Positions 13,236-19,583 of a DNA stretch of 64,000 bases are shown piece by piece. A program made the position numbers and the translations under genes. The stretch comes from an uncultured Clostridia bacterium. Lineage in GTDB: Bacteria > Bacillota > Clostridia > Christensenellales > Borkfalkiaceae. The stretch is taken from NCBI GenBank assembly GCA_947629095.1, contig CANRCK010000002.1, forward strand, positions 186,001-250,000, given 5' to 3'. The notes beneath the pieces were generated by a model. It did no database searches. It had not been told where the DNA came from and saw only the letters and a program-made list of their open reading frames with translations. Each line of letters opens with the position of its first letter. Position 1 is the stretch's first letter.

Positions 13236-13448
13236 TTAAGCCACCATAATTTTCCCAGCAAGGGTTCTGTCCAGGCAAAGCCTGCCCTCTTTTACGATAA
13301 CTATCACATTGCCGCCGGTAGAGGAAACGAGGGTTATTTTGCTGCCCTCGCAGATGCCCAGCTCGTGGAGATGTTTTTTTAATTTTTCTTCCGCCGCTAC
13401 TTTTCTTACAAGCAGTTCCCGACCTGCGGGAGCAATGGCAATCGGCAT
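13236..13448 (-). CDS. FeoA-domain protein (first copy)
   Basis: A 70-aa FeoA paralogue. LKKHLHELGICEGSKITLVS and GGNVIVIVKEGRLCLDRTLA follow the SH3-like FeoA pattern. ATG 13448 has GAGGTG at the right distance; the GTG at 13457 lies inside that site. It is the first gene of the feo operon, behind a near-consensus promoter. Tandem feoA genes are common in Clostridia; whether both bind the same FeoB is not visible from sequence. Confidence 0.9.
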   Translation of the reverse strand: MPIAIAPAGRELLVRKVAAEEKLKKHLHELGICEGSKITLVSSTGGNVIVIVKEGRLCLDRTLAGKIMVA

Positions 13449-13492
13449 AAAAATCACCTCAAAAACTTAATTACGGTTTATTTTCACTATCC

Positions 13493-13520
13493 ATTATAGC
13501 GCGCATTTTAAATTTGTCAA
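13493..13520 (-). promoter_or_regulatory. Promoter of the feo operon
   Basis: On the complement: TTGACA (13520-13515), 16 nt, TATAAT (13498-13493). I see no clear Fur-type 19-bp palindrome over it. Confidence 0.8.
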
Positions 13521-13630
13521 CAAAAAAATAACCAAGGTTCAGTTTTTTTTGAAAAATTTTTATTTTTCGTTGTTTTGTGAAGAAATTACAAATACCCTTG
13601 CTATTCCCAAAAGGAAAAACGGCTCCATAC

Positions 13631-13660
13631 AAAAAAGGGCAGCCGTTAACAGCGCCCTAT
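13631..13660 (-). terminator. Terminator of the toxin-antitoxin-chaperone cassette
   Basis: Imperfect hairpin GGGCAGCC-GTTAAC-AGCGCCC (13638-13658). On the minus strand it is followed by TTTTTTG. Confidence 0.6.
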
Positions 13661-13679
13661 GTTTTTGTGGATTTTTAGC

Positions 13680-14102
13680 TTATTGATTTGCCTGCTCCTG
13701 TTCCGATTGTTTTAACCATTGTTCAACGTTTATAACAGGCAAAACGTAGGGCGGAACATTGACGTTGGCTGTGACTGTGGCAATCAACGACCGCAAAAAA
13801 GGAAATAGTATTGCCACAGTATTTATTTTCATCACGTCCGGACACGTTGTTTCCCATTGATTACTTTCAAAAATACCCCTTATGGACAATTCAAAATCAA
13901 ATGGAGTCGTTAAATCCTCGGCGCTGCTTATGGCAAAAGTAAGAACCACCTCGGCTTGATTTTCATCGATTTTATTGATTTGTCGAGTCAATTGGGGATT
14001 TACTTCAATGGTTCTGTTTTCGTTATAACAATAGTTCAAATTTAAAGCAAAGTTCAATTTCAACACATCGTAACGGATTAATTTAAGTATACTTTCAACC
14101 AT
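13680..14102 (-). CDS. SecB-like chaperone of a toxin-antitoxin-chaperone system
   Basis: A 140-aa protein. Its C-terminal half contains ILFPFLRSLIATVT followed by NVPPYVLPVINVEQW, the signature segment of SecB-fold chaperones (ILFPYxRELI, then PPLxLxPxNF). SecB is not generally part of the Sec pathway in Clostridia; solitary SecB-like proteins next to a toxin-antitoxin pair act as chaperones that stabilise the antitoxin. ATG 14102 overlaps the antitoxin stop; GGAGGG lies 13 nt upstream. AT-rich composition differs from the flanking feo and mnmA genes, suggesting transfer. Confidence 0.8.
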   Translation of the reverse strand: MVESILKLIRYDVLKLNFALNLNYCYNENRTIEVNPQLTRQINKIDENQAEVVLTFAISSAEDLTTPFDFELSIRGIFESNQWETTCPDVMKINTVAILFPFLRSLIATVTANVNVPPYVLPVINVEQWLKQSEQEQANQ

Positions 14103-14679
14103 AATTTTCAATCTCCCTCCACATATAATTGTAATACGGCGACGTGTTATGCAAAGTTACGGATTTCAATATTTTTGCATTTTCAGGCAGCTGCAATAGG
14201 TCAATATTACTTTTATCGAGATATTCTTTAACTTGCCTTTTCTCTCTTGTTGTTAATAAAGATTCATTTTTGTTAAACGCTATTTTAACGTTCTTTTTAT
14301 CTTTCATAAAACAAATAAGCAAATTGTGTGCCGAATCCTGGGGCGCACCGCTTTCATACCGCGTTATTGTTTTTTCTCCAAACCCAAGTAAACGCGAGAA
14401 AGCGGATTGTGAAATTCCGATGGTTTCCCTTATCTCCTTGATTTGTTCCGGCAATAAAAAATGCTTCTGTGCACGATATTCATTAAAAACAATCTTTTCA
14501 TTTTTCTTTTCAAGTTCTTCATCCCAAACAGCCTGCCCGCATTTGCAACAATAGCGTGTTTCGATTACTGCCTTAACCTGCGTATCTTTTACAGTAAATA
14601 TTTTTTCTTCTTGTTTTATTTTTGTTTCGTTCTCTTCATTGCATTCATCACAATAATATTTTATAAATAAATTGCTCAT
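14095..14679 (-). CDS. MqsA-family antitoxin with C-terminal extension
   Basis: A 194-aa DNA-binding antitoxin. An N-terminal zinc-binding region has Cys10, Cys13, Cys44 and Cys47 (CDEC and CKC). The central XRE-type HTH (about 76-115; EIRETIGISQSAFSRLLGFG, TRYESG) is typical of MqsA. A C-terminal tail (about 150-194) ends in an aromatic-rich stretch, PYYNYMWREIENYG, where chaperone-addicted antitoxins carry their chaperone-binding (ChAD) segment. AAGGAGAGG supports ATG 14679. The gene lies between toxin and chaperone. Confidence 0.85.
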   Translation of the reverse strand: MSNLFIKYYCDECNEENETKIKQEEKIFTVKDTQVKAVIETRYCCKCGQAVWDEELEKKNEKIVFNEYRAQKHFLLPEQIKEIRETIGISQSAFSRLLGFGEKTITRYESGAPQDSAHNLLICFMKDKKNVKIAFNKNESLLTTREKRQVKEYLDKSNIDLLQLPENAKILKSVTLHNTSPYYNYMWREIENYG

Positions 14680-14750
14680 TTCCTCTCCTTTCCGTCTTCC
14701 GCCATGCGTTACTGTTCGTTTCTTTACTTAATCCTAATTCGGTTTTACCA

Positions 14751-15050
14751 CTATATTTCATCTATATGACAGCTTATTGCCCTTATCGGTTTAACATATT
14801 TTATTTTGATATAAAAAACTTCACCATATGCTTTCTTTTTAAAAATCCATATATTCCCCGGCGAACCGTCATAATCCGCCTCCGGACCTCGCTCGTAATC
14901 CTGTACTTGTAAAGATTTAATTATGTCTTTTTGCTCATCTACCGTAATCCCCAAGCGGTATCGGGTAGCGGCGTTCTTATCGCGATTGGCAATTATTATG
15001 CACGATGTTTTTATTAAATCTATTACTTCATCCAGCGTTTCAGTTGCCAT
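14751..15050 (-). CDS. MqsR-like toxin (putative mRNA interferase)
   Basis: A 99-aa basic protein with the RelE/MqsR fold pattern seen in Firmicutes relatives: ATRYRLGITVDEQKDII, then IKSLQVQDYERGPEADYDG, GNIWIFKK and VFYIKIKYV. MqsR toxins cleave mRNA, usually at GCN sites. ATG 15050 follows AAGGGGG; an ATG at 15080 lacks a site. Toxin-first order matches mqsRA. Promoter at 15095-15123. Family assignment rests on motif spacing rather than an alignment; HigB-like toxins are the main alternative. Confidence 0.72.
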   Translation of the reverse strand: MATETLDEVIDLIKTSCIIIANRDKNAATRYRLGITVDEQKDIIKSLQVQDYERGPEADYDGSPGNIWIFKKKAYGEVFYIKIKYVKPIRAISCHIDEI

Positions 15051-15094
15051 CGCCGTCCCCCTTGTTCTTTTTGGTATCATAAGATACTAATTTA

Positions 15095-15123
15095 ATTATA
15101 TGCCGTGACTTGCAAACTGTCAA
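15095..15123 (-). promoter_or_regulatory. Consensus promoter of the toxin-antitoxin-chaperone cassette
   Basis: On the complement: TTGACA (15123-15118), exactly 17 nt, TATAAT (15100-15095). A perfect consensus promoter is expected for an autorepressed operon. Confidence 0.8.
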
Positions 15124-15274
15124 CTGATTTTTTGGATTTTTTAATTTTTATTACTGACCGCAAAAATATAGATATGTAAATTATTTATACCGCGCCACAC
15201 TTTTATTTAAACTTTTTATTCAAAATTCAATAAAAGAAATACTGAAACTTATATCTAATAAACGTTATTATTTT

Positions 15275-15317
15275 TATAAAACCTAAAGTGAGTCCGGTAC
15301 AATACCGAACTCACTTT
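15275..15317 (-). terminator. Terminator of the TerB-like gene
   Basis: Hairpin with arms AAAGTGAGTCCGGTA and TACCGAACTCACTTT (one mismatch, 15285-15317), followed on the minus strand by TAGGTTTTATAAA. The rest of the 15124-15345 gap is AT-rich with nothing else identifiable. Confidence 0.75.
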
Positions 15318-15345
15318 AAACTTAATCACGTTTCCCTGCACGGGG

Positions 15346-15801
15346 TTAAGCCATGCACAGTTGCTTTATGTAGCGCTTTTCTTTAAGCGATACTTTTCCG
15401 TCCACCGAAGTAACCAAGAGGCAGAGCATAACTATGTCCGCGGCAAGCTCTTCGTTTGCCATTGCCAGAACGGAGAGCAGCTCGCCCGTGTAGCCCTTTA
15501 TCAATTTTTGCACATCGCGGGAAACTTTTATGGTGTTCTTTATCCCCGCAAGGTCGCAGGCTTCCCCGAACGCCTCTTCAAGCGACGGATAAATATTGAG
15601 ATAGTCCTTTTCGCTTACGGAGCCGTCCGCAACTACAGAACCCACTATGAACGCCGCCAATGTTTCAACAGGGTCGGTCCCCTCTATGCCGAGGGCGTGC
15701 AGACCCGCCACAACCGACAGGGCTTTATCGGCAATAAGCACTCCCCTCTCCGCAGGGGTCAGCTTTTCAACTTCGTTGCAAAGTTTTTGAAATTCAAACA
15801 T
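15346..15801 (-). CDS. TerB-like domain protein
   Basis: A 151-aa cytosolic helical protein. Two similar helical halves each contain an Asp-Gly turn (VVADGSVSEKDY, about 63-74; VTSVDGKVSLKEKRYI near the C-terminus), the acidic metal-binding pattern of TerB-like proteins. TerB proteins bind divalent cations and occur in stress-response contexts; the role of this solitary copy is unknown. ATG 15801 follows AAGGAGAG. Confidence 0.75.
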   Translation of the reverse strand: MFEFQKLCNEVEKLTPAERGVLIADKALSVVAGLHALGIEGTDPVETLAAFIVGSVVADGSVSEKDYLNIYPSLEEAFGEACDLAGIKNTIKVSRDVQKLIKGYTGELLSVLAMANEELAADIVMLCLLVTSVDGKVSLKEKRYIKQLCMA

Positions 15802-15920
15802 ATAACTCTCCTTTATCCTCAACGGCTTTGCGCCGTTTTTTTATTATGGATATTATACTACACGTTGTATAATAACACAAGCATAAAACGCGCCGCGGGG
15901 GCGGATTTTGCCGCAAAAAA

Positions 15921-15949: not shown

Positions 15950-16026
15950 TGGTCTACCTGCGCGGATTCGAACCGCGGGTCTCCAGAGTCGGAGTCTGAC
16001 GTGTTATCCAGCTGCACTACAGGTAG
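15950..16026 (-). tRNA. tRNA-Arg (anticodon CCG)
   Basis: A 77-nt cloverleaf on the complement. The acceptor arms are CTACCTG and CAGGTAG, with discriminator A and an encoded CCA (15952-15950). The anticodon stem TCAGA/TCTGG encloses the loop CTCCGAC, anticodon CCG (reads CGG). The T arm is CGCGG-TTCGAAT-CCGCG. It lies between the TerB-like gene and the DUF4250 gene and is read on the same strand. Confidence 0.95.
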
Positions 16027-17465: not shown

Positions 17466-19583
17466 TTATCTCAAAACGGGATACAGACCCTCGGCAAAAT
17501 TGAGGTTGGAAAGATCCCAAACGGACTCGCTCCACCCGAGCATCTCCACATAGAATGTGTTTTTGTCGTTTAAATACTCCTCGGTTACCATCATTCCGCC
17601 CGAAGCCTTTACGGTGTACGCGCGGTAGCAAGACGTTTGTTTCCCCTCACCCGTGTTTGTTGCTATGGCGTCAATACATTCTACGTCTGAAGAACCGCTT
17701 ACGCTGACGCTGCTTGTAAATAAACAGTATTCCACAGTCCCACTGTTTACCCCTGCAATACCGCCAAGGTGGGTTTTCCCGGTTCTGTTTTTCTTAGAAA
17801 CATTAATCGTGGACATAACAAGGCATTTGCCGACCGTGCCGGTGTTTTCGCCTGCAATACCGCCCACGTTTATATCTGCGATACTATTATAATTTATCCC
17901 ACTAGTTATTTTTGAAGAAACTTCCCCGACAACTTCGCAATCCAAAATATTGCCCTCGCTTTTGCCGGCTATCATTCCAAAATATGACTTATATCCTTCA
18001 TCAACCTTATCGGTAAAGCTTACGGTTGCGTTGCAATAAACCTGTTTCACGGTGCCCTTGTTGTAGGCGCACACAAGTCCGATATAGCGCTCGACTTTGT
18101 TGGAATTAGTAGCATTTAAAGTCGCGTTTTCGAATCTGACATTTGCGATTGTGCCCTCGTTCACGGCAAAAAGTCCGTAGTAGTTGACGGCGGCGTCCGC
18201 ATAAAGTGAGAAATTGGAAATGGTGTGACCTTCGCCTATAAATTCGCCCTTGAACGGGTTGCTTTCCGAACCGAATGTGCGCAGTTCGGCGTTTTTGCAG
18301 TCTATGTCGTCGGTCAAAATATATTTGCCGCTCATATCCGTAATGTTCTGGAGCTGCATTATGTCCTTGATTTTGGTGTAGTCCTTGTAGGGGTCGTCAT
18401 ACTCCCACTTGCCGTAAATATCCACATCGGCGTGCAGCACAAAGGGAAATTCCACCTTTTGCGTATAATTTTCATTAAAATACCAATCGATAAAAGTGTA
18501 ATTTTCAACCTCGGGCACGGTGAAATTCCGATACTCCGTACCACCCTTTGCCTTTATAGGGTCGGGCGTTAGCGCAACGTTGGTGTGGAAAGTTATGGTG
18601 TACTCCGCCTCCTTCCACAGCGCATACACAACTATGTTGCCCGAAAGTTGCAGAGGATACTGCACGGGCTCGGCGTAGTCTTGGTCTGTATACCAGCCCA
18701 CAAAGTCATAATCGGTCTTTGTGGGGTCGGGGAGCTTTTCTATCTGCTCGTCCGCATAGTACTCGACCGCGTCCATATGGTCGCCGCCTGCCGTATCGAA
18801 TGTGACCTTATACTTTGCAACCGCTTTCCAGCGTGCGGTGAGGGTCACGTCCCTTGTTACGGGCGTTACTGTAGTAAATTGCCCGTCGTTTACGGTGTCA
18901 CCCGTAAACCAACCCAAAAACGTGTAATTGTCGCGCGTGGGTATGGGCAAATCGAGCACGTCGCCGTAGTTTACCGTTATTTCTTCCTGCACGTCCTGCG
19001 GCAGCTCGCCGCCGTTTACATTATATTTTACGGTGTGCGTTTCATTGGCGTGCGGGGCGTCGTCGCCCTTTTCACCCTTTTCGCCTTGGGGTCCCTGTGC
19101 GCCTGTTTCGCCTTTCTCGCCTTGGGGTCCCTGCGCGCCCGTTTCACCTTTCTCGCCTTGGGGACCCTGTGCGCCTGTTTCGCCCTTTTCGCCTTGGGGA
19201 CCCTGCGCGCCGGTTTCCCCTTTTTCGCCTTGGGGACCCTGTGCGCCTGTTTCCCCTTTTTCACCTTGGGGACCCTGCGCGCCGGTTTCCCCTTTTTCGC
19301 CTTGGGGACCCTGTGCGCCTGTTTCCCCTTTCTCGCCTTGGGGTCCTTGTGCGCCCGTTTCGCCCTTTTCGCCTTGGGGACCTTGTGCACCAGTTTCACC
19401 CTTTTCTCCTTGGGGTCCCTGCGCGCCTGTTTCGCCCTTTTCGCCTTGTATACCTTGTATGCCTTGAATTCCCTGCTCGCCCTGAGGTCCGCGCTCACCC
19501 TGCACGGAGCATGCGGCGGCAAAGACCATTGCAATTGCAAGCATAAAAATCATAACATAAAAAATCGGTTTGAATCTTTTCAT
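17466..19583 (-). CDS. Collagen-like repeat surface lipoprotein with InlB-type and GLUG-like repeats
   Basis: A 705-aa secreted lipoprotein. The signal peptide ends at Cys25 (FAAAC). Residues about 29-175 are Gly-X-Y collagen-like repeats, including ten units of GEKGETGAQGPQ encoded by near-identical 36-bp DNA repeats (19084-19443). Three InlB/Flg_new-type repeats follow (about 180-390; Y-T-F-L-G-W-F and F-V-G-W-Y cores). Then come GLUG-like beta-helix segments (VGGIAGENTGTV, LGGIAGVNSGTV) to the C-terminus. It is probably a surface adhesin or structural fibre. It is divergent from an XRE regulator; unit number may vary by slippage. Confidence 0.9.
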   Translation of the reverse strand: MKRFKPIFYVMIFMLAIAMVFAAACSVQGERGPQGEQGIQGIQGIQGEKGETGAQGPQGEKGETGAQGPQGEKGETGAQGPQGEKGETGAQGPQGEKGETGAQGPQGEKGETGAQGPQGEKGETGAQGPQGEKGETGAQGPQGEKGETGAQGPQGEKGETGAQGPQGEKGEKGDDAPHANETHTVKYNVNGGELPQDVQEEITVNYGDVLDLPIPTRDNYTFLGWFTGDTVNDGQFTTVTPVTRDVTLTARWKAVAKYKVTFDTAGGDHMDAVEYYADEQIEKLPDPTKTDYDFVGWYTDQDYAEPVQYPLQLSGNIVVYALWKEAEYTITFHTNVALTPDPIKAKGGTEYRNFTVPEVENYTFIDWYFNENYTQKVEFPFVLHADVDIYGKWEYDDPYKDYTKIKDIMQLQNITDMSGKYILTDDIDCKNAELRTFGSESNPFKGEFIGEGHTISNFSLYADAAVNYYGLFAVNEGTIANVRFENATLNATNSNKVERYIGLVCAYNKGTVKQVYCNATVSFTDKVDEGYKSYFGMIAGKSEGNILDCEVVGEVSSKITSGINYNSIADINVGGIAGENTGTVGKCLVMSTINVSKKNRTGKTHLGGIAGVNSGTVEYCLFTSSVSVSGSSDVECIDAIATNTGEGKQTSCYRAYTVKASGGMMVTEEYLNDKNTFYVEMLGWSESVWDLSNLNFAEGLYPVLR

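Follow-up and report, generated by a model that had tools for sequence, protein, structure and literature searches.

Does a compact, AT-rich gene cluster in an uncultured clostridial genome encode a complete toxin–antitoxin–chaperone (TAC) system? The cluster (the cassette) lies in a 64,000-nucleotide stretch, called here the window (contig CANRCK010000002.1, positions 186,001 to 250,000, assembly GCA_947629095.1), from an uncultured Clostridia bacterium of the family Borkfalkiaceae. A sequence-only reading had proposed an MqsR-like toxin, an MqsA-family antitoxin and a SecB-like protein, encoded by three tightly packed genes behind a perfect promoter. The cassette is, with a probability of about 0.9, a chromosomal MqsR–MqsA–SecB (MqsRAC-type) TAC operon, probably horizontally gained. 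Its identity is based on the gene families, the operon layout, a gene overlap, the predicted MqsR and SecB folds, the invariant toxin residues and the variability of the site in relatives; toxicity, chaperone dependence and the trigger would be those of characterised relatives. The cassette comprises the following features:

13680–14102, minus strand: SecB-like chaperone gene, 140 aa (Pfam SecB match, predicted fold)
14095–14679, minus strand: MqsA-family antitoxin gene, 194 aa (Pfam and NCBIfam matches)
14751–15050, minus strand: MqsR-family toxin gene, 99 aa, with an ATG start at 15050 downstream of AAGGGGGA
15095–15123, minus strand: sigma-70-type promoter TTGACA-17-TATAAT, 12/12 positions (promoter scan)

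The three reading frames and the promoter are present as had been described; all lie on the minus strand, and the promoter reads from 15123 to 15095. A second in-frame ATG of the toxin gene is found at 15080. The 3′ end of the antitoxin gene and the ATG of the SecB-like gene overlap by 8 nt (ATGGTTGA); the likely Shine–Dalgarno sequence of secB (GGAGGGAG) and its start codon are located within the last antitoxin codons.

The motifs quoted for the SecB-like protein are present, and it matches Pfam SecB with 53.7 bits (cut-off 26). Among the PDB chains matched by its structure model at E ≤ 0.001, 19 of 23 are SecB or the SecB-like TAC chaperone of Mycobacterium tuberculosis, including 5mtw, in which that chaperone is bound to its chaperone-addiction (ChAD) peptide; the remaining four chains belong to two streptococcal proteins labelled ‘unknown function’. 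The best match in the PADLOC defence library is PD-T4-9_C.

The antitoxin passes the cut-offs of both MqsA models (41 bits against 30 for PF15731; 93.7 against 61.8 for TIGR03830). It possesses the cysteines 10, 13, 44 and 47 and the helix–turn–helix (HTH) domain (about residues 78–111) read from the sequence; these cysteines are conserved in all four TAC antitoxins compared and absent from a Lactobacillaceae plasmid relative. The Panacea domain (PF13274) is not among its Pfam matches up to E = 1. A C-terminal extension of 90 aa, counted from the ITRYESG motif to the C-terminus, includes a variable tail of about 40 aa; the tail, ending in -WREIENYG, is a putative ChAD by analogy with described TACs. 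The extension claimed earlier exists and does have aromatic residues at its end, but its aromatic character does not serve as a signature: Phe, Trp and Tyr are only mildly enriched (12.2% of TAC tails against 9.1% of cores), and a lower content of charged residues is the clearer trend (20.7% against 32.6%). These values come from 13 of 17 dereplicated loci, as L037, L081, L178 and L181 lack the motif used for the split. Moreover, since the last antitoxin codons also hold the ribosome-binding site and start of secB, part of the spelling of the aromatic tail may be forced.

The 99-aa protein is predicted to be an MqsR-family toxin, with a borderline score for the Pfam family. Its structure model is confident (predicted local distance difference test score, pLDDT, 94.6), the best structural match is E. 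coli MqsR (3hi2_B), both by Foldseek and by realignment of Foldseek's hits, and all residues invariant across the toxin family are retained. With the SecB fold matched and the 99-aa protein matching MqsR and not an unrelated non-toxin family, the assignments of the sequence-only reading for the two proteins hold; by comparison with characterised relatives, the 99-aa protein would be toxic.

Several points weigh against the MqsRAC-type assignment. The toxin scores 25.3 bits against the Pfam MqsR gathering score of 26.2, 0.9 bit short; no NCBIfam or PADLOC model matched it, a single-sequence PDB search with it gave nothing credible, and its Foldseek E-value against MqsR is only 8e-3. The antitoxin ends in -NYG and does not have the hydrophobic ClpX degron, -AA or -VA, that is reported at the C-terminus of HigA1 and CmdA. 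Binding of the tail by the SecB-like chaperone is presumed from relatives, and a second SecB resident in the genome might substitute for that of the cassette. A general -AA degron in TACs was considered and rejected, as it fails for the MqsA–SecB loci: Ala, Val, Ile or Leu occupies both last antitoxin positions in 5 of 17 dereplicated loci (LAA twice, FAA, FAI and SAV), the window not among them.

That the cassette is a decaying relic with a toxin no longer active is the least likely of the alternatives and very improbable. Its sporadic occurrence would agree with decay (among the family genomes sampled, antitoxin matches better than E 1e-8 occur only in G000, G036 and G002); against it, the three frames are intact, neither the promoter nor the ribosome sites are missing, and the toxin keeps the residues invariant in its family.

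Operons of this kind are already known and were experimentally shown in Vibrio and E. coli; the cassette is one more member. TACs join HigBA, HicAB or MqsRA to SecB, and the MqsRA–SecB system of V. cholerae is functional in E. coli; ChADs have no significant similarity among themselves (PMC5105189). MqsRAC (E. coli C496_10) and Vcho-TAC (V. cholerae RC385) likewise consist of an MqsR toxin, an MqsA with a C-terminal extension and a SecB-like chaperone (PMC9519451, PMC10783111, PMC5105189); compared by description, the cassette, known from sequence alone, differs in its clostridial host and in a toxin of borderline Pfam score. Protection against phage T2 has been shown for E. coli MqsRAC, and MqsR toxicity is rescued only by MqsA together with MqsC (PMC9519451, PMC10783111). 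The M. tuberculosis system Rv1955–Rv1956–Rv1957 (HigB1–HigA1–SecB-TA) has the same architecture and chaperone fold (5mtw), but it contains HigBA in place of MqsRA, and HigA1 carries a hydrophobic ClpX degron, Val-Ala (PMC8165232), which the cassette antitoxin lacks. CmdTAC (PD-T4-9) shares the SecB-like chaperone and differs in its ADP-ribosyltransferase toxin and in CmdA, which consists of two helices and a disordered tail. The trigger of CmdTAC is a capsid protein, its action depends on ClpP, and Gram-positive species also possess homologues (PMC11618068). The statement that TACs are described mainly in Proteobacteria and Mycobacteria was consequently too strong. The cassette combines an MqsR-family toxin, an MqsA with zinc and HTH domains, a C-terminal extension beyond the HTH and a SecB-like gene in the operon; it has no -AA/-VA hydrophobic end, ADP-ribosyltransferase toxin or Panacea domain, and its chaperone stays below the export-SecB equivalog cut-offs. 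A report of an MqsRA–SecB TAC in this lineage was not found in the literature. The cassette extends an operon kind validated in phage defence to a lineage of uncultured, spore-forming Clostridia; the label ‘spore-former’ is reasonable because Spo0A_C and SpoIVA_ATPase are both found in the genome.

By analogy with these systems, the zinc domain of the antitoxin would bind MqsR and neutralise its RNase activity, and the HTH domain would repress the operon. The C-terminal tail would keep the antitoxin unstable until the SecB-like chaperone binds it. The chaperone might be titrated off; a phage protein is the most plausible cause, unfolded or exported proteins the other. A protease would then remove the antitoxin, and MqsR would cut mRNA and arrest growth, resulting in abortive infection or dormancy.

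SecB is common in this family. Of 301 genomes of this Clostridia family, 206 have a SecB match of some kind, as do 50 of the 52 other genomes of the genus that were listed (75 genomes without a match are outside that list). SecB sequences from Firmicutes have also been published (PMC4257090; 75 among 3813, PMC4361572). Of 70 SecB sequences from outside the alpha-, beta- and gamma-proteobacteria, 44 accompany toxin–antitoxin genes (PMC4257090). The remark that canonical SecB is generally missing from Clostridia therefore overstated the case. The frequency of lone SecB in the family is relevant to the role of solitary SecB in monoderm bacteria, a question posed in PMC4257090. The second SecB of the same genome is such a lone gene (L002 1432–1866; C2:98430–98723), located between serine-protease-like and RNase E/G-like genes (labels by eye).

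One alternative is that a two-component MqsRA pair happens to adjoin a general export chaperone, the tail not being a chaperone-addiction segment. TAC chaperones tested to date are able to stand in for SecB of E. coli (PMC5105189, Discussion), and a 1028-aa frame of the genome, presumably SecA, contains a SEC-C motif, a weak indication given that SEC-C also matches in Bacillus subtilis. On the other side, the antitoxin and chaperone genes overlap, SecB directly follows MqsA in 17 dereplicated loci and stands beside none of 51 Panacea-fused MqsA, and none of the seven NCBIfam export-SecB matches comes near its cut-off (best-scoring 50.8 against 143). In a SecB tree of 46 rows, 14 lone SecBs of the family, including the second one of this genome, form one separate clade (100/99). 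This alternative is very unlikely, and the TAC operon is preferred.

In the same tree, the cassette SecB groups with that of G036 (100/80), and the nearest sequences after these two are TAC chaperones of Clostridiales and Izemoplasmatales. The 18 rows labelled MqsRA, the plasmid row included, need six label changes, at least three of them forced by starred branches, so the chaperone and the toxin–antitoxin pair seem to have recombined during evolution; the position of several rows, which form long branches, is uncertain. An origin of the cassette SecB as a copy of the resident one is unsupported by this tree, with the same caution.

Relatives of the whole cassette are scattered. With the antitoxin as query, 50 of 396 genomes of the order gave a match at E ≤ 0.001, many of them confined to the HTH part, and TIGR03830 scored above its cut-off in 24 of 291 genomes in a class-wide search. 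Toxin, antitoxin and SecB occur together, according to profile checks of the 30 loci listed, in five genomes: G000 (window, L082), G036, G578, G002 and G536. An antitoxin-like frame stands beside SecB only in the window, in L018 and, weakly, in L029 among 30 family SecB loci listed, a comparison with the window antitoxin that would miss other toxin–antitoxin types. In L278 (G088) and L281 (G024), SecB lies behind HTH antitoxin genes with small upstream genes that are RelE/HigB-like by eye; this gene order indicates that other TAC types are present in the family. A scan of named genomes with the antitoxin alignment returned at least 80 loci, and two named strains, Anaerotalea alkaliphila F-3ap and Faecalispora jeddahensis JCD, possess an MqsA–SecB locus.

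Mobile elements carry relatives too. Seven plasmid records (Pediococcus, Lactiplantibacillus and Secundilactobacillus) encode a SecB 31% identical to that of the cassette; in the three plasmids examined it is preceded by an HTH gene and a small hypothetical gene, and a DUF3892 gene follows the operon. The HTH protein in the antitoxin position of a Pediococcus plasmid (L062 2450–2998, plus strand) has no zinc-finger cysteines. A search of genome contigs with the single SecB protein found no relatives, and tblastn with SecB against 50,697 phage records (E ≤ 0.01) gave no match. IMG/VR viral contigs yielded 25 loci with SecB relatives (not dereplicated), most behind toxin–antitoxin-like genes and one of MqsRA type by profiles. 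Read by eye, the antitoxin-position frame ends in -AA or -VA in 21 of these loci; in two (L106, L130) it ends differently, and in two (L126, L129) no such frame was readable. In viral contigs L107–L124, L127 and L128, SecB lies behind a small protein ending in -AA or -VA; many also carry a CmdT-like ‘YHGT’ gene (by eye), and several of the loci are near contig ends.

These carriers bear on what the operon is for. Slightly short of an even chance is given to the view that it is a TAC serving mainly stress or persistence control, or mobile-element stabilisation, and not phage defence, a view that leaves the architecture unaffected. It is favoured by the stress-linked TAC of M. tuberculosis (PMC5105189), the Lactobacillaceae plasmids and the tRNA-side slot of the cassette itself, and opposed by the blocking of T2 by E. 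coli MqsRAC, the triggering of CmdTAC by a capsid protein (PMC9519451, PMC10783111, PMC11618068) and the 25 viral contigs.

Comparison of antitoxins shows two C-terminal modules on the MqsA core. A clear core was found in 98 loci, which dereplication reduced to 76. Of these, 51 carry a fused Panacea domain, 17 adjoin SecB, none has both, six have neither and two are truncated. A toxin match stands beside 44 of the Panacea fusions and beside 15 of the 17 dereplicated MqsA–SecB loci. Pfam Panacea was detected in seven of ten antitoxins submitted, clearly in five and barely above the cut-off in L097 and L098; it was absent from L080, L081 and L037. In an antitoxin-core tree of 69 rows, the C-terminal state needs seven changes, at least four forced by starred branches. 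The clearest pair is L081 (1240–1944, minus strand; tail and SecB) and L085 (672–1685, minus strand; Panacea), which share 57% identity over an ungapped stretch of 167 residues before their C-termini diverge, as a direct module swap may have left them. Panacea and the SecB-linked tail resemble trigger modules that can replace one another. It is an even proposition that, in Clostridia and neighbours, MqsR/MqsA is a fixed base to which one of two exchangeable C-terminal triggers is attached, a fused Panacea or an addiction tail read by an adjacent SecB. MqsR:PanA, e.g. of Bacillus fungorum, shares the toxin family and the zinc–HTH antitoxin core with the cassette but has a fused C-terminal Panacea domain instead of the tail and SecB gene; Panacea was proposed as a sensor, and MqsR:PanA was validated (PMC10440598). 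An exchange between SecB and Panacea is unmentioned in the available texts of the literature found, including PMC10440598 and PMC8832971. If the proposition is true, Panacea would be the counterpart of the SecB–tail pair, a sensor linked to folding or proteolysis, and its function would become directly testable via tail swaps. Two modules on one core provide a concrete handle on how toxin–antitoxin systems gain triggers and on what Panacea senses.

The cassette is surrounded by further signals and neighbours:

13631–13658, minus strand: hairpin and U run downstream of secB, probable operon terminator (fold)
15074–15087, minus strand: short palindrome GTATC-TTAT-GATAC near the expected transcription start, candidate antitoxin operator
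15284–15318, no strand assigned: 16-bp inverted repeat upstream of the cassette (fold, z about -6 on both strands)
15346–15822, minus strand: TerB-like gene, sharing the slot with the cassette (Pfam match weak, E 0.11)
15950–16026, minus strand: tRNA-Arg (CCG), bordering the variable slot that holds the cassette

The AT-rich composition noted earlier is confirmed by comparison with the flanks. The GC content of the cassette coding region is 36.0%, against 52.4% in feoB–feoA and in mnmA, the flanking genes; among windows of cassette length (step 50) across the 64 kb, only 13 of 1253 have a GC content that low, and each of them overlaps the cassette. In other genomes of the genus, feoA follows about 240 nt after tRNA-Arg, with no room for a cassette (G169), or the slot holds a different toxin–antitoxin-like pair, a TerB-like gene and an ABC transporter (G669) or two other open reading frames (G184); the genes were labelled by eye. 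The slot is thus variable, and the cassette, integrated in the chromosome, was probably gained by horizontal transfer. The TerB-like gene is patchy as well, with matches in eight of 61 genus genomes, its own counted.

The palindrome, with arms of only 5 bp, is a possible operator. Promoter-like sites in 13400–15400 are no more frequent than in shuffles (5 against 6.8 ± 3.0), and another 12/12 site lies outside the cassette at 13520–13493, so the weight of the cassette promoter comes from its location ahead of the operon. The hairpin downstream of secB folds with z = -2.06 (4 of 200 shuffles were equally good) and was missed by the scan of 13400–15400 that gave the promoters. The inverted repeat is probably a bidirectional terminator between the cassette and the TerB-like gene. 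Further along the window, at 17466–19583 on the minus strand, a 705-aa lipoprotein-like open reading frame contains a long collagen-like GEKGETGAQGPQ repeat (both labels by eye).
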